Positions 1,187-61,755 of a DNA stretch of 64,000 bases are shown in pieces; the first letter of the stretch is position 1; the number at the start of each line of letters is the position of its first letter. This DNA is from a virus. The notes beneath the pieces are model-generated. The model searched no databases. It worked only from the letters and a program-made list of their open reading frames with translations, and was not told the origin of the DNA. The DNA is taken from IMG/VR virus record IMGVR_UViG_3300025121_000282, positions 124,001 to 188,000 of that record; one strand, 5' to 3'. A program made the position numbers and the translations under genes.

Positions 1187-1212
1187 CTTCGACCCGAGTC
1201 GTAGTCGGTTAA
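1187..1212 (-). promoter_or_regulatory. Phage promoter motif TTAACC-N16-GAAG
   Basis: On the minus strand TTAACC overlaps the TAA stop of the 1209-2042 gene and is followed after exactly 16 bases by GAAG. It would drive the 308-aa gene. Confidence 0.55.
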
Positions 1213-2042
1213 TCTGCCGATTTGTCAGTGGTACTGCTAAACATCTTCCTGGTTTCTTCCACACGCCATTCCTTAAAACCCGGAGCAAGAGCGTCGAGGT
1301 AGTCCTCAGCATTGACCTGTCTGGCGTTCCACCTAATGTTTTCCAAGACACGCGGTTCCAATTTCCACAGCAGTCTGACGTTCTCTTGGTTTTGACACCC
1401 CAACGAGGTTACCCAGTATTCTCTGTTCACACGTTTGACAGTAAACGGATAACTCTTGGTGGAAATTACTCGAATACCCGGGTCCCTGTTGGTGTTCCCG
1501 TGCCACAACGGGTTCTTATACTTACACCATCCGGGGATGCCGTAGCGGTTCCACCACAAAGACTTGGCAGGCTTGTAATCAAAGTCCGCCAAATCAAGTA
1601 CTTCTGGGTCTTTCGCTTCGTGACCTGGGAATCCCATTTTAAAGACCCCCAACAATTGGTCATTTTGGTTGTAGACCGAGTCCACGTAGTCCCATTCGTT
1701 GCAGTCATTGAAAATGATTACTCTCCACCCGTTTGAGGCTTTGTACTCGACATTGCCCGCAAATACGAATTGAGGTTCTGTGTCAGAAGTGAGGGTGATG
1801 TAACCAGTCTCAATGAGCTTGAAAAAATCCAGAATCTTAGATTTCATGACTTTTGTGTTTGTCCTATAACCACAAACAGGTAGGGAAGCGCGGTCATAAG
1901 TGGGAAAACCCTCACACTTGTGTACAACCTCATCACATTGCCAATCTGGTTCAGCCCTGCAGACCACACACCAACCATCTGGAGTACTGTGTGCCATTCT
2001 TGCCAGTGTTGCAGCAGAAGGCGAGGATAGGTTGTCACTCAT
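1209..2042 (-). CDS. Hypothetical 277-aa protein with N-terminal Cys cluster
   Basis: ATG at 2042 overlaps the stop of the upstream gene as ATGA, so translation is probably coupled. Residues 25-57 carry five cysteines (C25, C28, C36, C43, C57) that could bind zinc. From about residue 67 a second domain begins (KSKILDFFKLIETGYITL, then NGWRVIIFNDCNEWDYVDSV). The GW.v.IFNDc.eWDY pattern recalls small bacterial proteins of unknown function (DUF7693-like); this is a memory-level resemblance, not a firm assignment. The C-terminus is Trp- and basic-rich. Confidence 0.7.
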   Translation of the reverse strand: MSDNLSSPSAATLARMAHSTPDGWCVVCRAEPDWQCDEVVHKCEGFPTYDRASLPVCGYRTNTKVMKSKILDFFKLIETGYITLTSDTEPQFVFAGNVEYKASNGWRVIIFNDCNEWDYVDSVYNQNDQLLGVFKMGFPGHEAKDPEVLDLADFDYKPAKSLWWNRYGIPGWCKYKNPLWHGNTNRDPGIRVISTKSYPFTVKRVNREYWVTSLGCQNQENVRLLWKLEPRVLENIRWNARQVNAEDYLDALAPGFKEWRVEETRKMFSSTTDKSAD

Positions 2043-2389
2043 GGCATCTCACTTTTCCTAATTATTTCCAGTATTTCAGTCTCACAAACTGCAAGTTCGC
2101 CTTGAATAAAATTGATCACACGAAATAAGCCAAATTCCTGAATGGCCGAAACAGGACCCCTGAGGTAGATGTCGCCCAATGGTTTTCTGTATGCAGTTAG
2201 CCTAATCGGTCTGAATGGCAGATACTTTAGCAGTGTTTCAACAGGTTCTGCGGTTAGAAACTTGTAGCCACCCTGGATGTATACCGCACTATAATTTTCG
2301 TTGGTTTGGTGGACTGCCTCGATGGTGTTGGATTGAGGAAAGACAACGCGGACACCGTAAATGGTTACAAAATTAAGTATAACTATGGC
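2039..2389 (-). CDS. Hypothetical protein, start codon unclear (ATA?)
   Basis: An open frame ends with TGA overlapping the next gene's ATG (ATGA), and encodes a natural-looking sequence (IYGVRVVFPQSN, later YKFLTAEPVETLLKYLPF and RLTAYRKPLGDIYLRG). Between the upstream in-frame TAG and residue ~15 there is no ATG, GTG or TTG. ATA at 2386 follows an AAAGAG box by 8 bases and is the best-placed candidate. Alternatives are a one-base sequence error or a frameshift fusion with the 2383-2568 gene. Confidence 0.45.
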   Translation of the reverse strand, partial: AIVILNFVTIYGVRVVFPQSNTIEAVHQTNENYSAVYIQGGYKFLTAEPVETLLKYLPFRPIRLTAYRKPLGDIYLRGPVSAIQEFGLFRVINFIQGELAVCETEILEIIRKSEMP

Positions 2390-2568
2390 CTACACTCTTT
2401 CAATTTGTTTTCAAGTTCTAGAACCTTAGACTCCATCTGTACATAATCGATTGACACTTTGGCCAAAAGAATGGGTACACTGCAAATAAGTGCGATACCT
2501 ATGACTACGAACACCCGGTCTATAGATCGTTCGCGTCGTGTACGGGGAAGAATGAGAGGTACGGACAT
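2383..2568 (-). CDS. Small membrane-anchored protein, 61 aa
   Basis: A basic N-terminus (RTRRERSIDR) precedes one hydrophobic segment (about residues 19-37, FVVIGIALICSVPILLAKV) and a short charged coiled coil (ESKVLELENKLKE). Predicted topology is N-in, a single-pass inner-membrane peptide. It starts 9 bases after the 2578-2814 gene and so shares its transcript. Confidence 0.55.
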   Translation of the reverse strand: MSVPLILPRTRRERSIDRVFVVIGIALICSVPILLAKVSIDYVQMESKVLELENKLKECRP

Positions 2569-2577
2569 TGTGAGTAC

Positions 2578-2814
2578 TTACCGCTTAAGAAAGGCAACTG
2601 CCACTTTCCAACCTGGGGACAAGATCCGTCCGTCCTTGCTTGAAACCCACCCCTTTTCTCTGGCATAATTCTGGTATATCTCTTCTCCTGGACGGAGAGC
2701 AGGCACCTCAAAAGCGGGGGCTGTAAAAGTCATGACTTGATTACACCACTCAACCATGAGTTTACGGGTGTACTGGTCTTTGAATTCGTCTCTTGGTGTT
2801 GCATTTTCTGCCAT
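2578..2814 (-). CDS. Hypothetical 78-aa protein
   Basis: First gene of the minus-strand operon, reading from ATG 2814. It is helical at the N-terminus (PRDEFKDQYTRKLMVEWCNQ) with a Trp-rich C-terminus (REKGWVSSKDGRILSPGWKV). A promoter motif lies just upstream at 2823-2848. No family recognised. Confidence 0.6.
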   Translation of the reverse strand: MAENATPRDEFKDQYTRKLMVEWCNQVMTFTAPAFEVPALRPGEEIYQNYAREKGWVSSKDGRILSPGWKVAVAFLKR

Positions 2815-2822
2815 ATGTCACC

Positions 2823-2848
2823 ATTCCCACTGTATTCGTACAGGTTAA
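2823..2848 (-). promoter_or_regulatory. Phage promoter motif, leftward half of divergent pair
   Basis: TTAACC (2848 to 2843), 16 bases, GAAT (2826 to 2823), reading leftward into the 2814 gene. The first half is one arm of the palindrome GGTTAATTAACC; the other arm serves the rightward promoter. Confidence 0.65.
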
Positions 2849-2883: not shown

Positions 2884-3300
2884 ATGCCAATCACACTTGA
2901 AATCACATACCTGAATCACACAGTACAGGACCGCCCTCGTCTACAAGAACTGACCAACCCGGGGCCATCTGTGTTTAAAAACTGGTTGGATGGGACAGAC
3001 CCCGTAAGAGTCGTATTGGCTAGGTCTGATGAGTCCATTTTAGGTTGGATGGGGTGTGACCGTTATGGGGTTATTGGTTGGTTTGTAGACCCTCGGTTCA
3101 GGCATCTGGGCATAGCTACGAAGATGACTAAGCTCATTTCCGAATTAGGCCTACTGGACAGTTACCTGAATGCACAACCTAATGACCCAGTTGTGCATCA
3201 ACTGCTCACCATAATTGGTTACAGGAAGATTTATGACGGAGGGTGGGACTTGTTAGAGTTTGCCATATACACAAATAGGGTTGACTCTGATTTGTTATAG
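2884..3300 (+). CDS. GNAT-family N-acetyltransferase
   Basis: A 138-aa protein, counted from ATG 2884; an upstream in-frame ATG would place translation inside the promoter. Predicted to move an acetyl group from acetyl-CoA to an unknown amine. The GNAT core is visible: a strand SILGWMGCDRYGVIGWFVDP followed by RFRHLGIATKM, matching the motif A pyrophosphate loop (R-x-x-G-x-A), then a C-terminal strand IIGYRKIYDGGWDLLEF. Substrate unknown; phage GNATs can modify host proteins or toxins. Ends with TAG. Confidence 0.7.
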   Translation: MPITLEITYLNHTVQDRPRLQELTNPGPSVFKNWLDGTDPVRVVLARSDESILGWMGCDRYGVIGWFVDPRFRHLGIATKMTKLISELGLLDSYLNAQPNDPVVHQLLTIIGYRKIYDGGWDLLEFAIYTNRVDSDLL

Positions 3301-3306
3301 ACGAAC
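3281..3306 (+). promoter_or_regulatory. Phage promoter motif TTGACT-N16-GAAC
   Basis: The TTGACT half lies in the last codons of the GNAT gene and GAAC just after its stop, 25 bases before the next ATG. Confidence 0.5.
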
Positions 3307-3331: not shown

Positions 3332-3679
3332 ATGAACCCAATCGTTGATGAGATTCAGAAGCAATTTACCCAGCTGGGCCACACCTGGGTCAGTATGACT
3401 GTCAAAACTGAATCCAAAACTGAGCGTGCTACAATTCTGAGTTACCATAGGAACAACAACTGGTTCTGCACCTGGACTGCCTCAATGCGCGGTGGTGTTT
3501 TTCGAGGACTGGCTCACCCACACGACGGCCTGAACAACGTGGAAGGTCTGGAAGATTTTATCAGAAGGTGCCCCTCACACCACAAAATGATTCACAACCA
3601 GACCCGAGAGTTTAACAGGCTTCAATTCTTTATCACGGCCGACTACCTGACCAAGTGTGGCCTTGTTATAGTTGACTGA
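3332..3679 (+). CDS. Hypothetical 115-aa protein
   Basis: Start chosen at ATG 3332 because AAGGAAG precedes it. Reads MNPIVDEIQKQFTQLGHTWV, then a strand-rich core with NNWFCTWTASMRGGVF and a C-terminal FFITADYLTKCGLVIVD. No membrane segment. Not recognised. Confidence 0.65.
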   Translation: MNPIVDEIQKQFTQLGHTWVSMTVKTESKTERATILSYHRNNNWFCTWTASMRGGVFRGLAHPHDGLNNVEGLEDFIRRCPSHHKMIHNQTREFNRLQFFITADYLTKCGLVIVD

Positions 3680-4147
3680 GTGGCTCTTCGCGTGAAAAAT
3701 GACATGCAACATCAACTTACTGACCCCATCCAGGTACTAAAGTTCGTCACAGCGGGCAAGGCTACTTTTACCCTAAAATCAGTAAGTACGGGGGTCCACT
3801 ACACTTTTCAGGTCACCAAGGCTCCCCCGAAGCCTGATTTCCCCAATCGTACCCCCATTTACTTCGTGTCGGTACTGGTGGGACCGGATAACACGAAAAA
3901 TTACATGTACTTTGGTACCATTTCTGGGGCTTCAATGCTCTTCAAGATGGGGGCTAAGGCTAAAGTCATGGATGGGGCTAAATCGGTACAAGCCCTTATG
4001 TGGTTCTGGCGCAACCTCGTGGAATTTAGTGTGGTTCGTTCCGAGGTCAAGTTTTACCATGAGGGACGCTGCGCCCGTTGTGGGAAGAAACTCACAACGC
4101 CCGGATCGTTGGAACTTGGGTTTGGTCCCGAGTGCGCCAACAAATAA
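3680..4147 (+). CDS. DUF6011-like zinc protein
   Basis: GTG at 3680 directly follows the previous stop; an internal ATG (codon 9) is an alternative start. The C-terminal 25 residues match the DUF6011 zinc knuckle: GRCARCGKKLTTPGSLELGFGP-ECA, with CxxCG, the L-x-x-P-x-S turn and a G-x-GPxC end. The preceding region (YMYFGTISGASMLFKM) is beta-rich. DUF6011 tails occur on many phage proteins that act on nucleic acid; molecular role unknown. Confidence 0.7.
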   Translation: MALRVKNDMQHQLTDPIQVLKFVTAGKATFTLKSVSTGVHYTFQVTKAPPKPDFPNRTPIYFVSVLVGPDNTKNYMYFGTISGASMLFKMGAKAKVMDGAKSVQALMWFWRNLVEFSVVRSEVKFYHEGRCARCGKKLTTPGSLELGFGPECANK

Positions 4148-7546: not shown

Positions 7547-7777
7547 GTGAAGGCAACACTAGAATTTGACCTAAGCGACCCCCAAGGCAAAGATGACTTG
7601 AACTGTGCCATATGTGGTCAAGACATACGAGCGGTAATTCTCAAAGTGCTGGAAAACCTAAGAAATAAACGCAAGCACGCTCAGCTTCCCAGGAATCAAA
7701 TCAAACTTATAGAAACACTGGAAACTGATGTAAGAGAATTGATCATGGACCACAAATTAACCGACCTGTTCTATTGA
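7547..7777 (+). CDS. Hypothetical 76-aa protein, GTG start
   Basis: GTG at 7547 preceded by GAGG. One CAIC knuckle (residues 20-23), then a long charged helix (VLKVLENLRNKRKHAQ). Its TGA stop is inside the next promoter's TTGACC. Confidence 0.55.
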   Translation: MKATLEFDLSDPQGKDDLNCAICGQDIRAVILKVLENLRNKRKHAQLPRNQIKLIETLETDVRELIMDHKLTDLFY

Positions 7778-7799
7778 CCAATTATAAACAGAATAGAAC
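7774..7799 (+). promoter_or_regulatory. Phage promoter motif TTGACC-N16-GAAC
   Basis: TTGACC contains the TGA stop of the 7547 gene; precedes the AGGAGG-led 7829 gene. Confidence 0.5.
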
Positions 7800-11500: not shown

Positions 11501-11526
11501 TTAACCGTTTCAAGTCGTAGTAGAAT
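11501..11526 (+). promoter_or_regulatory. Phage promoter motif, leaderless type
   Basis: TTAACC-N16-GAAT with ATG exactly 6 bases after GAAT (11533), so the start codon would be at or next to the transcription start. Confidence 0.6.
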
Positions 11527-18805: not shown

Positions 18806-19037
18806 GTCACTTGAAGTCACTGACATCACCAGCCTTGGTATTGCTGGTTGGGGTCTTTTGGTTGAACTGGCAATCTCTCTAGGTGCATCAGATTACTGCA
18901 ACGAAATAGAACCTAAAACTGGTAAGCAAATTGCGCAACACCTGGGATGTAACGGGTGGAGAGTCGGGCACCTTAGATACCTGAAGTATGCCTACGAGTC
19001 CGGTAGGTTTCATGTTAAGCATACCGGGATTGATTGA
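18789..19037 (+). CDS. Hypothetical 82-aa protein, GTG start
   Basis: GTG 18789 preceded by GGGGA, overlapping the previous gene by 17 bases. Helical (GLLVELAISLGASDYCNEI; KQIAQHLGCNGWRVGHLRYL); the latter could be a helix-turn-helix. Confidence 0.5.
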   Translation: MEFKPKSLEVTDITSLGIAGWGLLVELAISLGASDYCNEIEPKTGKQIAQHLGCNGWRVGHLRYLKYAYESGRFHVKHTGID

Positions 19038-19100
19038 CTAGACTATGGTTCGTAGTTTATTATAAAAATAGTGTATGTCTACAACCGGACTGTAAAAATC

Positions 19101-19268
19101 ATGAACAGTGACCTTGAAAAAGAAATTGAACTCATAAAAAGGTCCTTGCGGTCAGCAATAGCTGTAACCAGAGGATTGCGCACCATCGATGTAGAATTGG
19201 AAGGACCCGATAATAGGGTGGTTATTAACAAGAAAAAGCTAGACGAATTGGTAAAGATTAAAAAATGA
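19101..19268 (+). CDS. Charged helical 55-aa protein
   Basis: MNSDLEKEIELIKRSLRSAI... ATG 19101 chosen; GTG 19071 would add 10 residues. AT-rich spacer TTTATTATAAAAATAG upstream. Confidence 0.5.
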   Translation: MNSDLEKEIELIKRSLRSAIAVTRGLRTIDVELEGPDNRVVINKKKLDELVKIKK

Positions 19269-19459
19269 AACCCCTGTACAAGACCACCCTAATTATTTGG
19301 TCAGAATTTCCTGGGGGTGCAGATGAAGCAGACCTCGCCGAGTTTGCTGACGCTGTGGTTACATATGAAGACGCGTTCTGCTCCAAACAAGAATCAATTC
19401 TTGTTAATAATCCAAAAGAAGACCCCGATTGGGTGAAAACAGATATTTTTGGTGACTAG
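19265..19459 (+). CDS. Phage protein of 'MKPLYKxTLxIWSE' family
   Basis: 64 aa, ATGA overlap. MKPLYKTTLIIWSEF, DAFCSKQESIL and DPDWVKTDIF mark a short family common in tailed phages, function unknown. Confidence 0.7.
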   Translation: MKPLYKTTLIIWSEFPGGADEADLAEFADAVVTYEDAFCSKQESILVNNPKEDPDWVKTDIFGD

Positions 19460-19461
19460 TT

Positions 19462-19650
19462 ATGAAAACTATCTCAGTTAAAATCGGCACCATGTCACTC
19501 AGTAAAGTCAACCACGTCAAAGGCAGGTTGGCCCTCAATGAATTCATCACGTGGCGCGAAAAAGGCCACATGACCCGTCCTGAGACCGGAATTATAGACG
19601 AAATCCGGTCCATCGGTGGGGAAACCGTTTATTTTGTGTGTAGGATATGA
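19462..19650 (+). CDS. Hypothetical 62-aa protein
   Basis: Two bases after the previous stop. MKTISVKIGTMSLSKVNHVK; basic N-half; C-terminal strand ETVYFVCRI. Confidence 0.55.
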   Translation: MKTISVKIGTMSLSKVNHVKGRLALNEFITWREKGHMTRPETGIIDEIRSIGGETVYFVCRI

Positions 19651-21605: not shown

Positions 21606-22013
21606 ATGGCCCGTCCGTTGAAGGTCCTGGTGACCACCGCTCACTCCCTCCGTTGCCGAGTTGTTACACCGAATGGTGAATACGAAGTGCACCCGTCCCA
21701 CACTTTTGAAGTAACGGGCGACCACGACCCTGAGTCCTCGATTCACCACAGATACAAAGACTTTTTGAACAGACTAGAAGAACCTGACAACTTGAATCTG
21801 GCAGTGTGTATTCAGCTGACAGAAGAGGGTGTGCCTACGAGTCTGAATTGCTATAAGACAACCCGAGAACTTGGAATACTTCAGCTTGGGGCGTTTGGCA
21901 TCAAGCCGCACAACTATAGCTTAGATTTGCTGGATGATAGAGACTTGTTTGGGAACTTGTGTCGCGCCGTTGACAAAATAAAAGCAGCTATAAAGAAACA
22001 AAAATGGGATTAA
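21606..22013 (+). CDS. Hypothetical 135-aa protein
   Basis: ATG 21606. MARPLKVLVTTAHSLRCRVV, beta-rich; HPSHTFEVTGDHDPESSIHH is His-rich; basic helical end KIKAAIKKQKWD. Confidence 0.6.
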   Translation: MARPLKVLVTTAHSLRCRVVTPNGEYEVHPSHTFEVTGDHDPESSIHHRYKDFLNRLEEPDNLNLAVCIQLTEEGVPTSLNCYKTTRELGILQLGAFGIKPHNYSLDLLDDRDLFGNLCRAVDKIKAAIKKQKWD

Positions 22014-22035
22014 CTCCTACCCTGTCTAGGTGAAT
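22010..22035 (+). promoter_or_regulatory. Phage promoter motif TTAACT-N16-GAAT
   Basis: TTAACT overlaps the TAA stop of the 21606 gene; followed by TTATAACAGGAGG before ATG 22061. Confidence 0.6.
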
Positions 22036-22887: not shown

Positions 22888-22913
22888 TTAACTGATTGGC
22901 CTCAGTGTAGAAT
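22888..22913 (+). promoter_or_regulatory. Phage promoter motif TTAACT-N16-GAAT
   Basis: Starts directly after a TAA stop; followed by a 130-base leader. Confidence 0.6.
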
Positions 22914-23306: not shown

Positions 23307-24137
23307 ATGTCTGCAGGAGCCCATTTCCTTGCAATGGACCTTAAGCAGTTGCTTGCAACTCTTACCATCAAGGTGGGTAAGAAAATTCATGGTCACACAT
23401 CTCGGGACCACATTCTTTTGGAATGCGGTTATTCTCATGTGCGAATTGATCGTAGTGGCAGTATTCAAGCTAGGAAGGAAGGGGAAGGGGAAAGGAATAA
23501 CCTTGACCGGGTCTGTCCAGATGTGGATTTTGAAACTGCTTACGTCTGGATGGTAAGTATTCTCATTGCTGGTCGTACGGTAGAGGTTGGCCAGGGTGTT
23601 GATTACAAGTCTATTTGCGGGTGGTGGCCCAGAAGCCATGTCAACATGTCACCCAAAGAACTGGTAAGGCAAGTTGTAGACCGTGGGTGGGACCTAAATC
23701 CTGATTATCAACGAGGGCATGTGTGGACCCCAAGCCACTCTGAAAGATTCATGGGTCATTTTCTTGAGGGCAATATGGTTCCGCCCTTTTATGTGCAGCG
23801 GTGGGACTCAGAAAAGAACGCACCCCCACACCTTAAGGCTGATTACTGGGACCACGCCGAAGTGGTGGATGGCCAGCAGCGCATTCGGGCCATCACAGCT
23901 TGGCTCGATGGGAGTATCCTGGCTGAACTGAGCGACGGGCGTCGGATTGCGTACAGGGACTTTGACGAGGTGGAACGGCGATGCCTTCCTGTGTTTAGCA
24001 TTTACTTCTTTGACATTTCTCGTGCAGAGCGTCTCAAGTTCTATCTTAAACTAAACAGAGCAGGTGTTTACCACACAGACGCCGAAATCGACAAAGTCAG
24101 AAAGTTGTTGGAAAATGAAACAACAACGCGGGAATAG
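23307..24137 (+). CDS. DUF262/ParB-like domain protein with extra N-domain
   Basis: 276 aa. From residue ~112 it follows the DUF262 (GmrSD N-domain, ParB/sulfiredoxin-fold) plan: LVRQVVDRGWDLNPDYQRGH-VWT, FYVQRWDSE, then AEVVDGQQRIRAITAWLDG (the conserved DGQQR) and FYLKLNRAGVYHTDAEI. DGQQR proteins typically hydrolyse nucleotides or nick DNA; phage versions are usually stand-alone. Residues 1-110 form a separate unknown domain. No GmrD-like HNH domain follows. Confidence 0.75.
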   Translation: MSAGAHFLAMDLKQLLATLTIKVGKKIHGHTSRDHILLECGYSHVRIDRSGSIQARKEGEGERNNLDRVCPDVDFETAYVWMVSILIAGRTVEVGQGVDYKSICGWWPRSHVNMSPKELVRQVVDRGWDLNPDYQRGHVWTPSHSERFMGHFLEGNMVPPFYVQRWDSEKNAPPHLKADYWDHAEVVDGQQRIRAITAWLDGSILAELSDGRRIAYRDFDEVERRCLPVFSIYFFDISRAERLKFYLKLNRAGVYHTDAEIDKVRKLLENETTTRE

Positions 24138-26091: not shown

Positions 26092-26240
26092 CTCCCTGAA
26101 ATAATCACTTATTTCAGTTGATTTTTAAGCCTGGGGGACTCTAAGCTCCCCAGGAGCCGTAAGGTTCTGGATCTGATGTTTGTGGCGCCGACGAAGTCGG
26201 CGTCTTGACCGTATCCGCAGGATACGCATCTAAATCTTTC
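26092..26240 (-). ncRNA. Candidate omegaRNA (TnpB guide RNA scaffold)
   Basis: The last 150 bases of tnpB hold stems at 26210-26226 (GTATCC core), 26186-26202 (CGCCGAC), 26130-26154 (CCTGGGG) and 26096-26117 (CTGAAATAA), all perfect. TnpB guide RNAs come from this overlap with the right end. The guide would be the flanking sequence leftward of about 26092. Confidence 0.5.
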
Positions 26241-27200
26241 GCCTTTACGGTTCTTTTCCGACTCCTTTAAACACTTTGGACAAATACGGGAAGTATAAGC
26301 AGCTAAAACAGGCACCACTAAAACACGGTTTTCTTGGGCCTTATGTTTTAAGCGCTCATGGACTCTGCGGACCGTCCAAGGAGCCATAGCTTTTCGGAAA
26401 CCTTTATTTCTTTTAGGGTTCTTCCCTTTCTTAATCCCTTTGAGGTCCTCTATTCCGAGAACTGAAATTTGATTCCATGGAATTTTGTTTAAAATTCTCC
26501 CAATATAATTTTCCCGTTCTTTCTGGGCTCTACGGAAACCATTAGAATCAGGAACACGTCTTCTGAGTTTATCTCTTATTTGACGGAATTCGGTACCTAA
26601 ATAAGTGGGCTTAGAACCATCAGACAAAGTAAGAAGTTTGATCACTCCTGAGTCAGCACCCACAGTGGTTTCAGGGTTTGGAACCTTGAGGTCTTGATCA
26701 GGTAAGTCAACCCACACAGCCAAAGAATTTTCAGAAATCTGAATTCCCTTCCCCATTTTAGCACCAGGGACAGCCAACCATTTATTAAGAACCCTTGTTC
26801 TTCTGGTCGGGATTATAATTCGCTCGCCTTTGGCGAGCGACGATAGTTTGATTACTAAATCGAATGACTTTTCACCATTTTCAATGCCCACAACCTTTGC
26901 ATCAAAAACACAATCACCAGTGAAATGAGGTAGACTAAAGCTTTGTCCCGTCTCCGCGGCTGCTTTGCAGCCGCTTGACAAGATCGACAGAGCCTGTCTA
27001 AGTGCTATCGATTTATAGCGTTCTGTGAGTCTCGTGTTTGTTAAACGAGCTAAGGTTTCTTTGTCCAAGCCTCCCGGCTCGGACCACAAGGATTTCAAAT
27101 AAAAGTTTACACCAGCCCGATAAGCTTGAAGAAGATTGGAAATCTTCTGCTTCTTTGAAGCAGTGATAAAATCCAAGCTTACTATGGCTGCTCGTCTCAT
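26109..27200 (-). CDS. tnpB: RNA-guided endonuclease TnpB (IS605 OrfB)
   Basis: 363 aa. RuvC-like nuclease, apparently intact: GADSGVIKLLTLSDG (D183), VLGIEDLKGI (E251), zinc ribbon CPKC (307-310) with CVSC (325-328), and GQDADFVGATNI (D333/D335). TnpB uses an omegaRNA to cut DNA beside a short TAM and helps retain the element. ATG 27200 overlaps the upstream gene's stop as ATGA. Several codons form perfect hairpins with 3-base loops, unusual for a coding sequence. Confidence 0.9.
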   Translation of the reverse strand: MRRAAIVSLDFITASKKQKISNLLQAYRAGVNFYLKSLWSEPGGLDKETLARLTNTRLTERYKSIALRQALSILSSGCKAAAETGQSFSLPHFTGDCVFDAKVVGIENGEKSFDLVIKLSSLAKGERIIIPTRRTRVLNKWLAVPGAKMGKGIQISENSLAVWVDLPDQDLKVPNPETTVGADSGVIKLLTLSDGSKPTYLGTEFRQIRDKLRRRVPDSNGFRRAQKERENYIGRILNKIPWNQISVLGIEDLKGIKKGKNPKRNKGFRKAMAPWTVRRVHERLKHKAQENRVLVVPVLAAYTSRICPKCLKESEKNRKGERFRCVSCGYGQDADFVGATNIRSRTLRLLGSLESPRLKNQLK

Positions 27201-29657: not shown

Positions 29658-29679
29658 CCGGGTTTGTTTCCATGTGAAT
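29654..29679 (+). promoter_or_regulatory. Phage promoter motif, long-conserved type
   Basis: TTGACC-N16-GAAT. The spacer GGGTTTGTTTCCATGT is nearly shared with 42471 and 55009. Confidence 0.65.
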
Positions 29680-30264: not shown

Positions 30265-30498
30265 ATGGACAACACCAACCTCAAGAATCCAAACGCCCTT
30301 CTCCAGACCCTGGGTGCTGCTTTGAATCAGCACGACCACCACAAAATTGGTGTTCTTAACGTCACTTTTGTCTGTGAGAATGGGGACCGCTTCGAATTTG
30401 GTCTCCCTCAGGCTCTCGATGCCATCGCCAACGACCTTTACTGGGACGAGCGTGGCAACTGGGCCGACGCCACCCACTGCACTGTGGACACCTTCTGA
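30265..30498 (+). CDS. Hypothetical 77-aa protein
   Basis: ALLQTLGAALNQHDHHKIGV, then VTFVCENGDRFEFGLPQALD. Overlaps the next ATG by one base. Confidence 0.55.
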   Translation: MDNTNLKNPNALLQTLGAALNQHDHHKIGVLNVTFVCENGDRFEFGLPQALDAIANDLYWDERGNWADATHCTVDTF

Positions 30499-36945: not shown

Positions 36946-37125
36946 ATGTACAGAACCGAACTTAGAGACGGTGTAATTGCAATACGATTTGATGGAACTG
37001 AGACCCTGCTGTATGTGGCAAAGCAGGTGAGTCTGTCTGAGGAAGAAATTGATGTTTTAATCAGTGTACTGTCTAAAGCCAAAGAGCGACGGGCTGAATT
37101 TAAAGAGAGACGTCTACCAGATTAA
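36946..37125 (+). CDS. Hypothetical 59-aa protein
   Basis: ATG 36946, 2 bases after the GNAT stop. MYRTELRDGVIAIRFDGTET, helix SEEEIDVLISVLSKAKERRA. TAA overlaps the next TTAACT. Confidence 0.6.
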   Translation: MYRTELRDGVIAIRFDGTETLLYVAKQVSLSEEEIDVLISVLSKAKERRAEFKERRLPD

Positions 37126-37147
37126 CTGTACCCATTCTGAATGGAAT
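37122..37147 (+). promoter_or_regulatory. Phage promoter motif TTAACT-N16-GAAT
   Basis: Shares its TAA with the 36946 gene's stop; CAAGGAG follows. Confidence 0.6.
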
Positions 37148-37766: not shown

Positions 37767-37792
37767 TTAACCATACTGCTCGCCAACAGAAT
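37767..37792 (+). promoter_or_regulatory. Phage promoter motif TTAACC-N16-GAAT
   Basis: Just after the TAG of the 37353 gene. Confidence 0.6.
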
Positions 37793-40178: not shown

Positions 40179-41363
40179 ATGAAAATCAACCTTGCCATGG
40201 TCGAAGCGGCAGTTGCCGGGTGCACCTCATTCGTACGTCGGGAGTTTGTCACCCCCTACGGCAGAGAGTGGGTCTCGTACGATTATTCCTATGCTTACCC
40301 GGCTCTCTTCGAAGAGCACCCCGCACGCCTGGAGTGCCGCGGCATCGTGTTTGACAAGGACACGGGTCAGGTGGTCTGCCGTCCCTACCACAAGTTCTTC
40401 AATGCGGGCGAGATTCCGGGTACCGGGCTGGACAAGCTTGGTCTGGACCGCCCCCACTACATCTTGGAGAAGCTGGACGGGTCGATGATTCGTCCCATGT
40501 GGGTCCATGAAGGTGAAGTCCATTTTGGCACCCGTGCGGGTGTTACCGAAGTTTCGGAGCAGGCCACCGAGTATGCCCGTACCCGGCCTCAGTACCATCA
40601 ACTGTGCGAAGACTTGATGAACATCGGGCACACCCCCATTTTCGAGTGGTGCAGCCTCCAGAACCGGGTGGTGATCGCACACCCTGTCGACCGTCTGGTG
40701 CTGACTGGCATCCGGGACAATCTTACCGGTCTGTATCAGCCCTACACTACCATGCGAGCGATCGCCAACGACTATGGTGTGGAGTGTGTTCGGGCTTTCG
40801 ACCTGAATACCTCTGACCGAGAGGCTTTTGCGGCCTACGTCGCCGACCTTTTGGACATGGAAGGCTTTGTCATCCGATTCGAAGATGGCGAACACCCCGT
40901 GATGGTCAAGGTCAAGGCTGATGACTACGTTCGCCGTCATAAGACCCTGGGCATCCTTCGATCGGAACGAGCCATGTTCGAAACCCTGCTCGACGGTCTG
41001 CTCGACGACGCCAAATCTCGGCTGAATGAGAATGACCTTCCCGCTGTGAATACCTTCGAGGCAGAATTTTACGAGATTCTGAATTGCCGGTCTGCCCATG
41101 CCCTGGAGTTGTTGACCAAGGCCCGGGAGTCTGGGTGCACCCGCAAGGAGTTTGCAACTGAAATCGTCGGGAAGCGCGGGGACCGGGGTGTGCTGTTCAA
41201 CTTGTTCACTCGGGAATACCTCACCATGAAAGAGGTTGCCGATGAATTCATGGCTGTCCTCTCCAAAGAGGGCACCAAAAACGACCCCGACAAGATCCGG
41301 CGCATCCTGATGGCCGATGTGTCGTGGAACCCTGGCCGCAAGATTTCCACCGGAGATGAATAA
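40179..41363 (+). CDS. T4 Rnl1-type RNA ligase
   Basis: 394 aa (T4 Rnl1 is 374). ATP-dependent joining of 3'-OH and 5'-phosphate RNA ends. Motif I EKLDGSM with nucleotidyl lysine K98; upstream LECRGIVFD and YHKFFNAGE typical of Rnl1; motif III FEWCSLQNRVV; motif IV EGFVIRFEDG; motif V MVKVKADDYV. C-terminal ~130 residues helical, as in Rnl1's specificity domain. T4 Rnl1 repairs tRNA cut by host anticodon nucleases; no polynucleotide kinase gene is seen here. Strong GC-rich codons and a dedicated promoter. Confidence 0.9.
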   Translation: MKINLAMVEAAVAGCTSFVRREFVTPYGREWVSYDYSYAYPALFEEHPARLECRGIVFDKDTGQVVCRPYHKFFNAGEIPGTGLDKLGLDRPHYILEKLDGSMIRPMWVHEGEVHFGTRAGVTEVSEQATEYARTRPQYHQLCEDLMNIGHTPIFEWCSLQNRVVIAHPVDRLVLTGIRDNLTGLYQPYTTMRAIANDYGVECVRAFDLNTSDREAFAAYVADLLDMEGFVIRFEDGEHPVMVKVKADDYVRRHKTLGILRSERAMFETLLDGLLDDAKSRLNENDLPAVNTFEAEFYEILNCRSAHALELLTKARESGCTRKEFATEIVGKRGDRGVLFNLFTREYLTMKEVADEFMAVLSKEGTKNDPDKIRRILMADVSWNPGRKISTGDE

Positions 41364-42271: not shown

Positions 42272-42474
42272 ACGCGACAAAAATCCTCCAGGGGCTGAAT
42301 GACGAGATTGTGTCTGCTGAATTGCGGGTTGCCAAACTTAAGAACATTGAGTACTTGGTTTCCAGTCTTTTGAAGCTGGAGGGGTGGAACGAAGAACAGG
42401 AAGCCGATTGGATGGAACTCTGCAAAATAGCCGCAAACATCGGATATCCTCGACTGGAGAGACACGGGGATTGA
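42265..42474 (+). CDS. Coiled-coil 69-aa protein
   Basis: Overlaps the previous stop by 7 bases. LNDEIVSAELRVAKLKNIEY LVSSLLKLEGWNEEQE. Confidence 0.6.
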   Translation: MLDATKILQGLNDEIVSAELRVAKLKNIEYLVSSLLKLEGWNEEQEADWMELCKIAANIGYPRLERHGD

Positions 42475-42496
42475 CCGGGTTTGATTCCGTGTGAAT
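42471..42496 (+). promoter_or_regulatory. Phage promoter motif, long-conserved type
   Basis: TTGACC-N16-GAAT with spacer GGGTTTGATTCCGTGT, close to those at 29654 and 55009. Contains the stop of the 42265 gene. Confidence 0.65.
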
Positions 42497-43926: not shown

Positions 43927-43952
43927 CTAACCAACTGGTCGCATTATGGAAT
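43927..43952 (+). promoter_or_regulatory. Phage promoter motif, leaderless type
   Basis: CTAACC-N16-GAAT; ATG 43959 follows by exactly 6 bases. Confidence 0.55.
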
Positions 43953-51935: not shown

Positions 51936-52640
51936 ATGGTCATTTCCGTCGTTTCTGATGTCCACTGTGAGCACGACACCACAAATAAGCTCGCAGCCAT
52001 CCGAGAGATGCCCAAGAAAGAGTTTCTTGTACTGGCAGGCGACATTGGCACCCGGTCGAGCCTGGAGGCCGCTGTTGAGGCCTTCTGTGGCCGCGCAAAC
52101 CATGTCATCATGGTGGCTGGAAATCACGAAGCGTGGGGCCGCACCATTCAGGCTTCACTCGACCAGTGTAAAGAACTGGAATCAAAGTTCCCCAATTTCC
52201 ATTTCCTGAACAACAGTTCCGTCGTGATTGATGGCCAGCGATTCGTGGGCACTTCGTTGTGGTTCCCTGACCACCCTCTCAATTTTGCGTTTCATCATCT
52301 GGATAACGATTTCGCGCGCATTGACAATTTCGTATCTGACGTGTATGCTCACGCGACTGCAGCCAAACGTTATCTGGAAGGAGCCGTTGACACAGACGAT
52401 GTGGTCATCACCCACCATCTTCCGAGCCATGAGTCTGTACACCCCCGGTTCCGTGCGTCTGAGGGAAACAGGTTTTACGTCCACGATGTTTCCCGACTGG
52501 TAGAATACGCTCAGCCGAAGCTGTGGATTCATGGTCACACCCACGACCCCGTGGACTACATGATTGGTGATACCCGAGTAATTTGCAATCCGATGGGGTA
52601 TTATATCTGTCCGATCACAACTGTTGACGTGGAGCAGTAA
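51936..52640 (+). CDS. Calcineurin-like metallophosphoesterase
   Basis: 234 aa. Metal motifs in order: SDVHCEHD (D8, H10), LAGDIG (D37), VAGNHEAWG (N64, H65), VVITHHLP, and WIHGHTHDP. Binuclear metal phosphoesterase acting on phosphomonoesters or diesters, substrate unknown. Close in length to stand-alone YfcE-class enzymes. May take part in RNA end processing with the ligase and cREC proteins (inference only). Confidence 0.9.
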   Translation: MVISVVSDVHCEHDTTNKLAAIREMPKKEFLVLAGDIGTRSSLEAAVEAFCGRANHVIMVAGNHEAWGRTIQASLDQCKELESKFPNFHFLNNSSVVIDGQRFVGTSLWFPDHPLNFAFHHLDNDFARIDNFVSDVYAHATAAKRYLEGAVDTDDVVITHHLPSHESVHPRFRASEGNRFYVHDVSRLVEYAQPKLWIHGHTHDPVDYMIGDTRVICNPMGYYICPITTVDVEQ

Positions 52641-54468: not shown

Positions 54469-54494
54469 TTGACGCTGGTATACGTCAGGTGAAG
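54469..54494 (+). promoter_or_regulatory. Phage promoter motif TTGACG-N16-GAAG
   Basis: In the divergent gap; followed by TTATAACAAAGGAGG and ATG 54523. Confidence 0.6.
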
Positions 54495-56221: not shown

Positions 56222-57745
56222 CTATTCCCACTCGATGGTGGCAGGTGGCTTGTGGGAAATGTCATAGACTACCCGACAGATGCCTGGAACCTCGTTGGTG
56301 ATTCTGGTCGAAATCTTGTCCAGGACGTCATAGCCCATCCTGGACCAGTTGGCGGTCATCCCGTCTAAAGAGTCGCAAATTCTGACGACAACAGTGTCAC
56401 CATAGGTCCGCTCGTCCCCCACTACTCCTACCGATTTTACTGGTGCATACACAGCAAAATACTGCCAAAATTTCTTACTGGCATTGGTGGAGTACTCAGC
56501 CTCAACTACTTCAGAAACTATGTGGTTTGCTTTACGTGCAGCTGAGACCCGCTGCGGCGTAACCTCCCCTACAATTCTTATGGCCAAACCCGGGCCGGGA
56601 AAAGGCTGTCTCCAGAGCATCTTGTCGGGGATGCCGAGTTCTTTCCCCAACTCTCGGACCTCGTCCTTGAACATGAACCTAAGCGGCTCACACACCTTTA
56701 AACCAAGTTCTTTGGGTAAACCCCCCACGTTGTGATGACTCTTGATCACACTGGATGGGCCCTTGGTTGACATACTTTCGATAACATCGGGGTATAAAGT
56801 CCCCTGGGCTAAGAAGTCAAACTTCTCCCTACCCACTGCTGTCATGAATGCATTAATAAACTCGCGCCCAATAATCTTGCGTTTGGTTTCGGGGTCGGTT
56901 ACCCCCCTCAATGCATATAGGAATTGTTCTGAGGCGTCGTAGCACTTCACCCCAATCCCGTACCCGTCAAACATGTTCATGGTGTCTTCTACTTCTTCTT
57001 GCCTGAGAAGACCAGTATCCACAAACACACAAGTCAACCTGTCACCTATGGCATCATGAAGGAGTTTGGCAACTACGGTTGAATCCACACCTCCGGAAAC
57101 ACCACAGAGCACCTTGCTTGTGGGGCCAAGCTGTTCCTGAAGCTCTATCTGGATATTTGATAGTATGGTGTACGAGTTTTTCCTTAACGGAATCCCAGCA
57201 ATTTTTAAAAAGTTGGATAGTATTTTCCCACCAATTGCTGTATGGGAGACTTCTGGGTGAAACTGGACACCATAAAAATGAGCGTCGTCATTTGAGATAG
57301 CAGCAAATAGACCAGATTCTGACAGAGCATCAACTCTGAAACCGTGCGGTACTTGGTCCACTGAAACACCGTGGGACACCCACACTTCGAATTCGCCTTC
57401 AATGCCCCCCAATAATTTTGATTTCTGGAGTGCCTTAATAGAGGCCCGCCCGTACTCACCGTCACCCGTGGTACAAACAGACCCGCCCAAAGCAGTGGTT
57501 AAAAGCTGCATACCATAACAGATTCCAAGTATAGGCGCACCAAAATTTAGAATGCACGGATCTAGCGTAGGTGCTCCAGAGTCGGTGACGACAGCAGGGC
57601 CACCACTCAAGATTATCGCACTTGGGAACAAATCGTCAGTTACTTTATCCCATGGTAAAATTTTGTTTGCAGCACCCATCTCCAGTAGTCTTCTGGAGAT
57701 AAGTTGGGTGTACTGGCTGCCGTAGTCTACTATCAAAATTTCCAT
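56222..57745 (-). CDS. guaA: GMP synthase (glutamine-hydrolysing)
   Basis: 507 aa, full length (E. coli 525). Converts XMP, ATP and glutamine to GMP. Glutamine amidotransferase triad: C76 in ICYGMQ, H163 and E165 in FHPEVSHT. ATP-PPase SGGVDS at 217-222. The C-terminal dimerisation domain ends with the family's invariant PPATIEWE. Second gene of a guaB-guaA operon, 7 bases after guaB. Codon use is AT-richer than the long plus-strand genes, which fits acquisition from a cellular source (inference). Confidence 0.97.
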   Translation of the reverse strand: MEILIVDYGSQYTQLISRRLLEMGAANKILPWDKVTDDLFPSAIILSGGPAVVTDSGAPTLDPCILNFGAPILGICYGMQLLTTALGGSVCTTGDGEYGRASIKALQKSKLLGGIEGEFEVWVSHGVSVDQVPHGFRVDALSESGLFAAISNDDAHFYGVQFHPEVSHTAIGGKILSNFLKIAGIPLRKNSYTILSNIQIELQEQLGPTSKVLCGVSGGVDSTVVAKLLHDAIGDRLTCVFVDTGLLRQEEVEDTMNMFDGYGIGVKCYDASEQFLYALRGVTDPETKRKIIGREFINAFMTAVGREKFDFLAQGTLYPDVIESMSTKGPSSVIKSHHNVGGLPKELGLKVCEPLRFMFKDEVRELGKELGIPDKMLWRQPFPGPGLAIRIVGEVTPQRVSAARKANHIVSEVVEAEYSTNASKKFWQYFAVYAPVKSVGVVGDERTYGDTVVVRICDSLDGMTANWSRMGYDVLDKISTRITNEVPGICRVVYDISHKPPATIEWE

Positions 57746-57752
57746 TTTGTAA

Positions 57753-58859
57753 TTAGCCCTTGTAATTTGTGGTGGGTGTAACAGAAAGCATGTCGTGGAC
57801 GTGAGATTCAGACCTACCAGCTTGGGTTACGGTTGTGAACCGCATCCCACCTCTTAGCCGATTGATAGTTTTAGCGCCCACGTATCCCATGCCCGATTTG
57901 AGCCCACCAACTAACTGAAATAATACTTGAGAAACAGGACCCGTGTATGGGACCAACCCCTCTACACCTTCCGGGACCAGTTTGTCTTGGGCTACCCCGT
58001 CTTGAGAGTACCGGTCGCTGCTACCACTTTCCATAGCACCCACGGAACCCATACCTCTGTATTTCTTATAGTATTTTCCGTCATTAATACCTATTACTCT
58101 CTCTCCAGGGGCCTCGTCGCATCCAGCCAAAATGTTGCCAATCATGACAGCATGAGCACCTGCTGCTATGGCTTTGGTTATGTCTCCGGAGTACCGGATT
58201 CCACCATCAGCTATAATTGACAACCCATCTTCGGAGTCACAGACCGTGGCACAGTCAGAAATAGCCTGAAGTTGTGGAACCCCCGCACCAGAAACCACCC
58301 GGGTGGTACAGATGGAACCGCCACCTATGCCCACTTTCACTACATTTGCGCCAGCTTTATAGAGTCTGTAGGTGCCGTTTGCGTCTGTCACGTTACCGGC
58401 TATAATGGTAATGTCGGCGTCCAGTCCCCTCACATACTCCACCATTGAAACCACATTTTTGCTATTTCCGTGGGCGGAATCTATGACTATGGCGTCGGTT
58501 CTGGCCTCTACGAGTGCCCTGGCTCTAAATCTATTTGGCAAAGAGACACCGATAGCAGCTGCAGTTCTAGTGCCCCATTCTTCTCTGCTTTCTTTGATAG
58601 TGGTACACTGCTTTTCTATGGACATGTTTTTATGTAGTACACCCAAACCGCCACATTTCCACATTTCTCTCAGCATAGCTTCGTCCGTAACAGTGTCCAT
58701 AGCTGAACTTAAAATAGGTATAGACAGTCTTATGCTTCCGATGGTTGTGCCAGTGTCCGCTTCGTTTGGTGTGAATTCGGCATATGCAGGACACAAAAGA
58801 ACGTCATCGTAGGTGAGCCCGTGTGTGCGCTCTAACTCAAATCGGGTAAAATTCTTCAT
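57753..58859 (-). CDS. guaB: IMP dehydrogenase lacking CBS domains
   Basis: 368 aa. Oxidises IMP to XMP with NAD+, feeding GuaA. GIGGGSICTTRVVSGAGVPQ holds the catalytic C184; ADGGIRYSGD, the flap GMGSVGAMESGSSDRYSQ, and KLVPEGVEGLVPYTG are IMPDH-specific (not GMP reductase). The usual Bateman/CBS insertion is replaced by a short link at residues ~80-97, so guanine-nucleotide allosteric control should be absent. AAAGG lies before ATG 58859; TATAAT on the minus strand at 58893-58898 is a possible -10 box. Confidence 0.95.
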   Translation of the reverse strand: MKNFTRFELERTHGLTYDDVLLCPAYAEFTPNEADTGTTIGSIRLSIPILSSAMDTVTDEAMLREMWKCGGLGVLHKNMSIEKQCTTIKESREEWGTRTAAAIGVSLPNRFRARALVEARTDAIVIDSAHGNSKNVVSMVEYVRGLDADITIIAGNVTDANGTYRLYKAGANVVKVGIGGGSICTTRVVSGAGVPQLQAISDCATVCDSEDGLSIIADGGIRYSGDITKAIAAGAHAVMIGNILAGCDEAPGERVIGINDGKYYKKYRGMGSVGAMESGSSDRYSQDGVAQDKLVPEGVEGLVPYTGPVSQVLFQLVGGLKSGMGYVGAKTINRLRGGMRFTTVTQAGRSESHVHDMLSVTPTTNYKG

Positions 58860-58908: not shown

Positions 58909-58934
58909 TTAACATAGGGGAAAGGAAGACGAAC
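58909..58934 (+). promoter_or_regulatory. Phage promoter motif TTAACA-N16-GAAC
   Basis: Divergent from guaB; drives the 58970 gene. Confidence 0.5.
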
Positions 58935-59780: not shown

Positions 59781-60059
59781 GTGGACCCAACACTTGAGGT
59801 CGCACGCAAGCTTACGTTTCGGCGACTAAAACCCACCTGCCCCAAAGTGCGGGAGTGTGAGGATGTTCTGTTGGGTGCCATGGCCCAATTGGAAACAAGA
59901 GTAAACAACTCTCCCGACAGGGAAAATCTTATTAATGGGTTTGTTGCAATAAAAACTGCTGTGTACGATTTCTTCTTATTAAACGATGAAATAAGAAATA
60001 AACTCCGCAATGAGTGGGTAGAACACATAGCTGAGTTGATTGACAACCACAATCTATAA
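59781..60059 (+). CDS. Hypothetical 92-aa helical protein, GTG start
   Basis: GTG directly after the NrdR-like TAA. CPKVRECEDVLLGAMAQLET; LRNEWVEHIAELIDNHNL. Confidence 0.55.
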   Translation: MDPTLEVARKLTFRRLKPTCPKVRECEDVLLGAMAQLETRVNNSPDRENLINGFVAIKTAVYDFFLLNDEIRNKLRNEWVEHIAELIDNHNL

Positions 60060-60065
60060 CTGAAT
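60040..60065 (+). promoter_or_regulatory. Phage promoter motif, leaderless type
   Basis: TTGACA-N16-GAAT; ATG 60072 follows by exactly 6 bases. Confidence 0.6.
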
Positions 60066-60071
60066 AGTTAT

Positions 60072-60313
60072 ATGAACACTATCAACATTCTCCCAGATGC
60101 CGGCTTTTTCACCCACTCGCGTTTCAGGCTGCCGAAATCATCGGTAAGCCCGAGTACTTGATGCACCCCGCCTGCATTGCGGGCTACCGCGATTATATGA
60201 AGGGCGATTTTGAGGCCATGTTTCACCGACTTGCCATTGACATGGACAAGTGGGGTGAAACCGATGAGGGCCGCAAATTGAACAGTCTCATCTTTCAGTA
60301 TAACGAGGAGTAA
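60072..60313 (+). CDS. Hypothetical ~80-aa protein, frameshifted at T5 run
   Basis: ATG 60072 reads MNTINILPDAGFFTHSRF and stops at about 60161. One extra T in 60105-60109 gives AGFFHPLAFQAAEIIGKPEY and opens the frame to TAA 60313 (GYRDYMKGDFEAMFHRLAID). Helical. Confidence 0.55.
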
Positions 60314-60318
60314 ATAGA

Positions 60319-61368
60319 GTGGAAAATCTGCCTAATTGTACTTGTGGTGCTTTCTCTTGGGTGGGCGGTGGTGGGTCGTTTGGTCCCAGCTACGCGTTCA
60401 CGCCCCGAGAATGTACAGAATGTGGCGCTCGTCTCCACCGTGTCGACCGTGACGGCTGGTGGTTGGCCCTGATTGTCCAGCCCACAGTCAGCGATGAAAC
60501 TTTCGAGACGTATGCAAACAGTGTTCTGACCATTCAGGCCCGGGTTTACAAGAAAGGGTGGGAAGCGGCTGTAAACGCCGAAGAGGACATCAGGTACAAC
60601 AACCTCGTGGCCTCGTGGGGACTGAACCCTTCGAAAGGCTGTAAGTACACCCCTCGAAAACTTCTGGACGAAAACGGGACCCAGATCGGGTGGGTGGAAG
60701 AGGAAGAAACCCACACCTATCCCGACAGGGAGCCTTACACCTACAAAACCATTGTGTACGATTTCCTCGACCACAATGGAAACAAGATCGAAATCGATAC
60801 CAAAGCCTTCCGCAAGGCCTGGATTGAGATGTTGGATGCCCATCCCCGAAACCCCGGGATCGTCCGAGCGCCGGACCCTATCAATCTTCCTGAGGGGATT
60901 ACGGCTTACGTGCTTCGAAACCAGATTTGGGAGAAAACTCCTCCGCAGGCTGAAGTGTTGCCGTTGCCAAACGACCCCCTCCGTATGGGGTGGGAAGATT
61001 ACTTTGGTAAGGTCTTTGATGCAGTTTGGGCGGCAACTGGCGTGGCCTGCAACCTCACGGAAACCCCGAACCAGTACTATACAGACCGAACTCAGTCCGA
61101 GCCGTGGTACCGCTTTGAGGTTGCAGGCTCCAAATTTACGGTTGGGCCTAGGAAGCGGGTTATTTCGCTTGAGGTCAACTTCCCAAGGTCTTGCAAGGTC
61201 GTTGCAATCCGGGATCTGGCTCTGCGGGACAACACCACCTACGAGGCCAATGCGGCATGGAAAAATGAAACCGAGGTTGCAGATAGCGTTTTGGTCCATG
61301 CCTGGACGCAGGATAAGCTGATCGAGTACCTCACCATTCTGGTCCGAATCGCAACTGAACAGAATTGA
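60319..61368 (+). CDS. Hypothetical 349-aa protein with N-terminal zinc ribbon
   Basis: GTG 60319 with GAGGAG upstream. CTCG...CTECG ribbon in residues 8-37, then FTPRECTECGARLHRVDRDG. The body is charged and Trp-rich (VEEEETHTYPDREPYTYKTI; VWAATGVACNLTETPNQYYT) and GC-rich in codon choice. The longest unknown gene in the window. Confidence 0.7.
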   Translation: MENLPNCTCGAFSWVGGGGSFGPSYAFTPRECTECGARLHRVDRDGWWLALIVQPTVSDETFETYANSVLTIQARVYKKGWEAAVNAEEDIRYNNLVASWGLNPSKGCKYTPRKLLDENGTQIGWVEEEETHTYPDREPYTYKTIVYDFLDHNGNKIEIDTKAFRKAWIEMLDAHPRNPGIVRAPDPINLPEGITAYVLRNQIWEKTPPQAEVLPLPNDPLRMGWEDYFGKVFDAVWAATGVACNLTETPNQYYTDRTQSEPWYRFEVAGSKFTVGPRKRVISLEVNFPRSCKVVAIRDLALRDNTTYEANAAWKNETEVADSVLVHAWTQDKLIEYLTILVRIATEQN

Positions 61369-61386
61369 CCATTCTGGGGGTCTTGT

Positions 61387-61737
61387 ATGAATGGGAGGTC
61401 TTACGCGAATGTGAACTCAGAGATTTTGCTGCGGGGGCCTGCGCAGTTTGACATGTGTGGCCAATTTCTCGGGTACCCTCTACAAGTGACTGCAGAAAAA
61501 GTATCTCCCGGGTTGGTCAAGAGGTTGGTGAAGTACGCTGTCAACCAGATGGTTGATCACGGTTTTCCGTGTTTTGGAAAAGTACGTGTTTATACCATGG
61601 ATGGCGACGAGCGACCAGCAGACCGAGACTACTGTGTCGAGTTTATCAATAGTAAGGGAAATGGTTTGGGTGTTCAGAGAATTCTCATGAAGAATGGACA
61701 CCCGTTTTTGGACCATGGATTCTATGTCATTAACTGA
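61387..61737 (+). CDS. Hypothetical 116-aa protein
   Basis: FDMCGQFLGYPLQVTAEKVS; GFPCFGKVRVYTMDGDERPA; strand-rich. TGA overlaps TTAACTGA. Confidence 0.6.
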   Translation: MNGRSYANVNSEILLRGPAQFDMCGQFLGYPLQVTAEKVSPGLVKRLVKYAVNQMVDHGFPCFGKVRVYTMDGDERPADRDYCVEFINSKGNGLGVQRILMKNGHPFLDHGFYVIN

Positions 61738-61755
61738 GACTGGTCTGGGCAGAAG
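61730..61755 (+). promoter_or_regulatory. Phage promoter motif TTAACT-N16-GAAG
   Basis: Overlaps the stop of the 61387 gene; drives 61783. Confidence 0.55.

Follow-up and report, generated by a model that had tools for sequence, protein, structure and literature searches.

A TTGAC/GAA motif in a jumbo-phage genome as a probable private sigma-type promoter

Jumbo phages of the Bacillus phage G group have been described as having neither RNA polymerase nor sigma factors (PMC7824862), so that the way in which these phages organise transcription was open. The question takes concrete form in a 64,000-nucleotide stretch of viral DNA (the window; positions 124001-188000 of the 314,886-bp virus record IMGVR_UViG_3300025121_000282). 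Here, a first-pass annotation had listed 32 copies of a two-part motif, TTRAC(N)-N16-GAA(T/G/C), which is the same pattern as TTRAC-N17-GAAB, and had proposed a phage sigma factor or activator as its reader. What is this motif, and what could read it? We analysed the whole record in overlapping pieces, and our findings suggest that the motif is probably a private sigma-type promoter, read by the host core RNA polymerase together with a specificity factor that is not the housekeeping sigma. We found no earlier report of such promoters in this phage group in the open-access literature.

The window contains 40 matches to TTRAC-N17-GAAB compared with 3.8 ± 2.0 expected and a maximum of 10 in 100 dinucleotide shuffles, and is thus enriched in the motif. 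Across the whole record the pattern matches 80 times in forward and 18 times in reverse orientation; the corresponding counts for a control pattern read backwards are 12 and 23. A position matrix seeded with the annotated sites and then retrained on the whole record detected 91 sites across the 315-kb record at a cut-off of at least 14 bits. At this cut-off the seed matrix gave 81 sites in the real sequence and 2 in shuffled sequence. Every annotated site was found where it had been placed, so count and coordinates were essentially right. However, only 28 of the 32 scored above 14 bits; those at 1212 (minus), 2849 (plus), 43927 and 58909 are weak, and the CTAAC variant read at 43927 is not enriched at all (1 match vs 1.4 expected). 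Two good sites were absent from the annotation, at 3672 with a GAAA ending (21.9 bits) and at 6672 with a TAAT ending (16.6 bits). Further intragenic matches to the pattern at 30356, 31708, 46549, 47127 (minus), 49958 (minus) and 51323 each score below 11 bits and are probably due to chance.

The consensus of the 91 sites, gATTGACc-N16-GAA(G/T)(A/T)A(C/T)-nn-(C/T)A or, in short, gATTGACc-N16-GAAkwAY, can be read as two sigma70 boxes with exactly 17 bp between TTGACC and the hexamer AAkwAY. TTRAC is invariant and position 6 of this box is most often C, which makes it a TTGACA-like -35 box. GAA is invariant as well; the next base is T in 36%, G in 40% and A in 19% of sites, and the base after that is A or T in 79%. 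In terms of promoter positions, A is found at -12 and -11 in about 100% of sites and G at -13 in 95%, so the T at -12 that is characteristic of TATAAT is missing. Varying the distance in ATTRAC-Nx-GAA yielded 91 matches for N17, 18 for N18, 7 for N16 and 1-16 for all remaining spacings. The spacing is thus nearly rigid, though not absolute. A fixed spacer near 17 bp between two boxes is as in sigma70-family promoters, and a main peak at N17 with a minor one at N18 is the range that a sigma holoenzyme tolerates. A pyrimidine-A bias about 9 bp past GAA marks a candidate initiator. Outside the main block of sites, TTGAC-N17-nAATwA, with a freer first base, lies 5' of a dozen genes. A spacer subtype containing GTTTCCATGTGAA recurs among the sites. 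At 39 of the 91 sites the stop codon of the preceding open reading frame (ORF; at least 40 codons) lies inside the TTRAC box. Overlap with TGA or TAA was considered as the cause of the R in TTRAC, but other ATTRAC words, used as a control, overlap stop codons at a similar rate, and the overlap therefore reflects tight packing of the genes and does not define the motif. An RNA hairpin in the spacer was also rejected, since folding of the core showed no excess (-3.70 vs -3.70 kcal/mol for column-shuffled versions).

The sites follow the genes in orientation and position. Between 127 and 215 kb of the record, 71 of 75 sites are on the plus strand and 81% of the coding sequence is plus; between 77 and 127 kb all 8 sites are on the minus strand, as is 92% of the coding sequence. 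Only 2 sites fall between 234 and 315 kb, a region assigned to tail and baseplate genes by portal-relative synteny and PHROG matches. An ORF with a Shine-Dalgarno (SD) sequence and a start codon follows 26-115 bp downstream of 59% of sites compared with 17% of random positions, the distance from site to start codon being usually about 50-60 bp (median 56 bp). The inferred start lies within a predicted gene at 19 of the 91 sites, versus 70% of positions drawn at random from the block. The sites are mostly intergenic; 5' placement and co-orientation with the genes are as in promoters of the sigma70 family. The densest array is found at 203-215 kb with one site per about 450 bp. The block looks like a set of small genes with one promoter each, presumably early or middle in timing. 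That the motif is a promoter is well supported at the level of sequence by geometry, orientation, position and the downstream SD sequences, from which we infer activity and start site.

A second, small class of sites is defined by the exact word TGTATAAT, because the corresponding matrix drifted. This word lies about 40-57 bp 5' of several genes, including the operon of IMP dehydrogenase (IMPDH) and GMP synthase, and the class looks like housekeeping promoters with a canonical -10 element. The operon itself is a guanine-nucleotide operon in a phage: the two genes adjoin at window positions 56222-58859 on the minus strand with TGTATAAT upstream. The sites of both classes in the window are the following (window coordinates, strand; bits from the retrained matrix; distances to SD and ATG are downstream).

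2823-2848 (-): promoter motif, 16.0 bits; back to back with the site at 2849 (+), with GGTTAATTAACC in common
3281-3306 (+): promoter motif, 14.8 bits; SD and ATG at 51 bp
3672-3697 (+): promoter motif with GAAA ending, newly found, 21.9 bits
4148-4173 (+): promoter motif, 28.3 bits
6672-6697 (+): variant TTAAC-N17-TAAT, newly found, 16.6 bits; SD and ATG at 57 bp
7774-7799 (+): promoter motif, 14.9 bits; SD and ATG at 55 bp
11501-11526 (+): promoter motif, 22.8 bits
13925-13950 (+): promoter motif, 17.1 bits
15770-15795 (+): promoter motif, 19.4 bits
17236-17261 (+): promoter motif, 18.5 bits
20445-20470 (+): promoter motif, 27.1 bits; TTGAC box contains the TGA stop of the preceding ORF
22010-22035 (+): promoter motif, 27.5 bits; TTAAC box contains the TAA stop of the preceding ORF
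22888-22913 (+): promoter motif, 21.5 bits
25332-25357 (+): promoter motif, 17.9 bits
27590-27615 (+): promoter motif with stop codon overlap, 32.1 bits; SD and ATG at 49 bp
29654-29679 (+): promoter motif of the GTTTCCATGTGAA spacer subtype with stop codon overlap, 35.8 bits
30216-30241 (+): promoter motif, 28.0 bits; SD and ATG at 49 bp
37122-37147 (+): promoter motif, 24.3 bits; SD and ATG at 49 bp
37767-37792 (+): promoter motif, 23.8 bits
40115-40140 (+): promoter motif, 18.2 bits; 5' of a T4 Rnl1-like RNA ligase gene, 40179-41363 (Pfam RNA_lig_T4_1)
42471-42496 (+): promoter motif, the strongest in the window, 36.2 bits; SD and ATG at 52 bp
43927-43952 (+): weak candidate, CTAAC variant, <11 bits
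45972-45997 (+): promoter motif, 29.4 bits
47434-47459 (+): promoter motif with stop codon overlap, 26.5 bits
50400-50425 (+): promoter motif, 28.9 bits
51885-51910 (+): promoter motif, 26.7 bits; 5' of a metallophosphoesterase gene, 51936-52640
54469-54494 (+): promoter motif, 24.8 bits
55009-55034 (+): promoter motif of the GTTTCCATGTGAA spacer subtype, 32.8 bits
55557-55582 (+): promoter motif with stop codon overlap, 15.3 bits
58893-58900 (-; record 182900): TGTATAAT, housekeeping-type extended -10; 5' of the IMPDH gene, 57753-58859 (-) (Pfam)
58909-58934 (+): weak candidate, exact pattern but <11 bits; divergent to the IMPDH/GMP synthase operon
60040-60065 (+): promoter motif, 23.8 bits
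61730-61755 (+): promoter motif, 21.1 bits; SD and ATG at 53 bp

Housekeeping sigma70/sigmaA promoters consist of TTGACA-N17-TATAAT. The annotation had regarded the motif as unlike them, which is correct for the -10 half, where GAAkwAY lacks the T at -12 and has an invariant A there, preceded by a strong G at -13, but not for the remainder: TTGAC and the 17-bp spacer (18 tolerated) are exactly sigma70-like, and the distance to the start codon is alike. In Firmicutes, sigmaH (Spo0H) promoters read RnAGGAwWW-N11-12-RnnGAATww. The likening of the GAAT core to sigmaH appears apt: GAAT would likewise be followed by two weak bases and preceded by a purine three bases earlier, and the box spacing seems to fit too. 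It had also been stated that the TTRAC half is foreign to sigmaH; TTRAC does replace AGGA, but is in itself an ordinary sigma70 -35 box. Promoters of sigma28/FliA have the form TAAA-N15-GCCGATAA. The letters of the present phage differ from these; its relative LR745208, however, carries CTAAAAA..CCGATAGGG at 50 sites, and the family thus does use alternative-sigma-like promoters. The middle promoters of phage T4 combine a MotA box with TATAAT and are read by AsiA-modified sigma70. There as here, one of the two sigma70 boxes has a phage-specific form, but in the present case the -35 box is canonical and the -10 box altered, whereas T4 shows the reverse.

The phage shares its portal with LR745208, Tunturi_5 and Bacillus phage G, and its capsid with at least 499 IMG/VR loci. 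At most 260 kb of each relative was sampled, and some IMG/VR records may be partial; within this sample the counts of the TTGAC/GAA motif do not exceed background in any of more than 40 relatives (Tunturi_5, LR745208, nine portal relatives and 34 major capsid protein relatives). Close relatives sharing the motif were not found in viral_contigs by the pattern or by two single-protein queries, in searches that may not have included the records nearest to this one. Judged by its letters, the motif is private to this phage among the sequences compared. A de novo dyad search of predicted upstream regions, each run against shuffled controls, revealed that seven relatives have an over-represented bipartite motif of their own with other letters and sigma-type geometry:

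G007: GTTTCATT..GGtGTATAcAg, 21 sites (null 0)
G009: TTTAAata..GTATATTa, 37 sites (null 2)
G006: CTCTGAgtt..CGTTg, 47 sites (null 4)
G011: GTTAAg..CGTAgg, 88 sites (null 0)
LR745208: CTAAAAA..CCGATAGGG, 50 sites (null 0)
Tunturi_5: TCATCTTT..TGTAGGTTGA (second box core TGTAGGTT), 28 sites (null 0)
G036: gtTGATC..gGc.ta (GTTGATC/GGcatA), 54 sites (null 5); the weakest, with 33 of 54 inside predicted genes

For the six relatives other than G036, the inferred start lies in genes at 0-30% of sites compared with 80-92% of random positions (74% for G011). Bacillus phage G (200 kb) and G015 have no clear private bipartite motif, the search gave nothing convincing for G010, and G001 (80 kb) was too small. 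Putative promoters that are just as strong but differ in their letters, as in most of the relatives tested, suggest that these phages keep changing how the host transcription machinery is directed. A second, compact over-represented motif is found in two relatives, TCATAATCCnTTTGTA in G006 and TAATAATCTnTTAATA in G009. The copies in G006 lie largely on the minus strand in the vicinity of the portal gene and could perhaps be late promoters; as an element of the phage studied here the compact motif was rejected, as it is not present.

Several relatives encode proteins containing sigma region 2, including a family in which this region is interrupted by a long insert. Such proteins were found neither in this phage nor in G007 or LR745208. 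In the split family (L252-L258, L189:1309-2541) the insert parts the two halves of region 2; G011 and G036 have, beside the split-sigma gene, another sigma2-like gene (L189:458-1282, L254:1667-2494). Portal, capsid and the lack of an RNA polymerase are shared with the Group 3 jumbo phages around Bacillus phage G, but in contrast to their description (Iyer et al. 2021, PMC7824862) the members analysed here encode a sigma4-like protein with a tandem helix-turn-helix (HTH), and several encode sigma2-containing proteins.

The tandem-HTH protein of the present phage has 215 aa (record 18879-19526) and matches Pfam Sigma70_r4 with 28.1 bits against a cut-off of 24.1 (E 1.4e-6); PDB profile matches are SigF and FliA. 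Its AlphaFold model contains two sigma4-like HTH units (pLDDT, the predicted local distance difference test score, 78), the first of which superposes on the solved sigma4 domains SigR4, SigD4 and SigF4 (Foldseek, root mean square deviation 0.9-1.4 Å; 0.9 for SigR region 4). By Pfam score and modelled fold, it is a member of the sigma region 4 family. It does not qualify as a complete sigma factor, as region 2 is absent and the model comprises the two HTH units only. As to the phage sigma factor proposed in the annotation, no region 2 protein was found in the record, only this protein resembling sigma region 4. The gene directly 5' is weakly NusG-like (E 0.0024), and both genes lie behind the clamp loader. 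The protein is present in 15 of 16 searched genomes of the jumbo-phage family, and Bacillus phage G has a weak match. Its recognition helix SQPTVCYRLQRA is common to G007 and LR745208, and TQAAISYRL(D/E/N)RG is found in G010, G011 and G036. Since the helices are nearly constant across phages with different promoters, the protein seems a better candidate for a constant cofactor than for the reader of the motif letters. In G007 and LR745208, whose helices are nearly identical, a CGATTTC box lies directly 5' of quite different -35 boxes; this box may be the site of the tandem-HTH protein. Conserved replication-module proteins were also considered as carriers of sigma region 2, but by eye their alignments are RuvC-like, SbcC/D-like and PD-(D/E)XK-like. 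No RNA polymerase, multisubunit or T7-type, appeared in Pfam tallies of 265 predicted proteins (for one set, among the best 25 of 58 families).

Taken as a private sigma-type promoter, the motif would comprise GATTRAC as -35 element, GAAkwAY 17 bp downstream as -10 element, and a pyrimidine-A initiator about 9 bp past GAA. In the plus-strand block at about 127-215 kb, such promoters would drive short transcription units for mostly small genes, often with the stop codon of a gene placed inside the -35 box of the promoter that follows. Host core RNA polymerase would be guided to them by a non-housekeeping factor, which would either be made by the phage and have diverged beyond recognition or be an alternative sigma of the host, with a sigmaH-like -10 preference, co-opted by the phage. 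A phage protein whose sequence does not resemble sigma, as with phiKZ gp68 or AR9 gp226, would agree with the first option. That option is suggested by letters that change from lineage to lineage and by the divergent sigma2 proteins found in relatives; a host sigma is suggested by the resemblance of GAAT to sigmaH promoters and of the LR745208 promoter to sigma28 promoters. Several observations weigh against this proposal. Sigma region 2 (PF04542) has no Pfam match in the record, and a profile built from the relatives' divergent sigma2 proteins reached a best E of 2.4 there, although a very divergent phage region 2 protein may be present. The TTGAC box is of the kind that a housekeeping sigma4 would read, so that recognition may be partly ordinary. 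Furthermore, the initiator is read from base composition alone, and the genes were called with our own simple hexamer-based caller.

The sites could instead be housekeeping promoters, with host sigma70 reading TTGAC and the 17-bp spacer and tolerating AAkAAY, so that the deviation would reflect drift or the host's consensus. The canonical -35 and spacer fit this explanation, AATAAY at a 17-bp spacer departs from TATAAT mainly at -12, and another sigma was not found in the record. However, the conservation from -13 to -11 indicates that the -10 deviation is selected and not drift. The same genome also has TGTATAAT promoters, one of them in the same intergenic region as the site at 58909, which speaks for a different reading of the TTGAC/GAA class, and letters of relatives such as CTCTGA/CGTT are outside what housekeeping sigmas are known to read. 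We therefore regard this explanation as unlikely. Alternatively, the tandem-HTH protein could read both boxes, one HTH each, two helical turns apart, and recruit RNA polymerase in the manner of an activator. The first of its two HTH units is a sigma region 4, and the protein occurs in nearly all genomes searched; the 22 bp between the boxes place them on one helix face, and LR745208 and G007 combine the CGATTTC box with near-identical recognition helices. Yet these helices hardly change although the promoters do, and the residues that contact TTGACA in sigma70 are not conserved, which makes this reader quite improbable. Finally, the motif could be a repeated intergenic element other than a promoter, such as an RNA processing site, a hairpin, or a recombination or packaging signal. 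Its repetition, above all as the GTTTCCATGTGAA spacer subtype and in the dense 203-215 kb array, would agree with this, but the core folds no better than column shuffles, the window has no Rfam match, and the strict gene orientation, promoter-like placement and sigma-like spacing spectrum leave such an element with hardly any likelihood.

For the family of at least 499 capsid relatives, we tentatively propose, as a possibility that we would not yet favour, that the promoter code changes per lineage while the geometry and the tandem sigma4-like cofactor stay constant. Specificity would then come from fast-evolving phage factors, namely the divergent sigmas with split region 2 in some members and an as yet unrecognised factor here, with a turnover resembling an arms race. 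With the promoter class described here, the private promoters of seven relatives and the near-universal sigma4-like protein, the way in which these phages organise transcription can now be tested in isolates, for example in Tunturi_5, which is cultured on Tunturiibacter. If the specificity factors are indeed made by the phages, the family would be a source of orthogonal sigma/promoter pairs.

The record holds several further genes of note. ARAGORN reports a tRNA-Pyl gene with a CTA anticodon (L020:19100-19174; record about 284600-284674, minus), a possible amber suppressor, although TAG is used as a stop in predicted genes at ordinary rates. A TnpB/Cas12f-like protein is encoded at window positions 26109-27200 on the minus strand (Pfam Cas12f1-like_TNB, E 9e-15), and a protein with the N-terminal domain of GmrSD, a type IV restriction enzyme family, at 23334-24137 on the plus strand. 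Genes related to NAD and ADP-ribose are numerous (Sir2, two NADAR, ADP-ribosylglycohydrolase and PARG), and two Mom-like DNA modification proteins are present as well.

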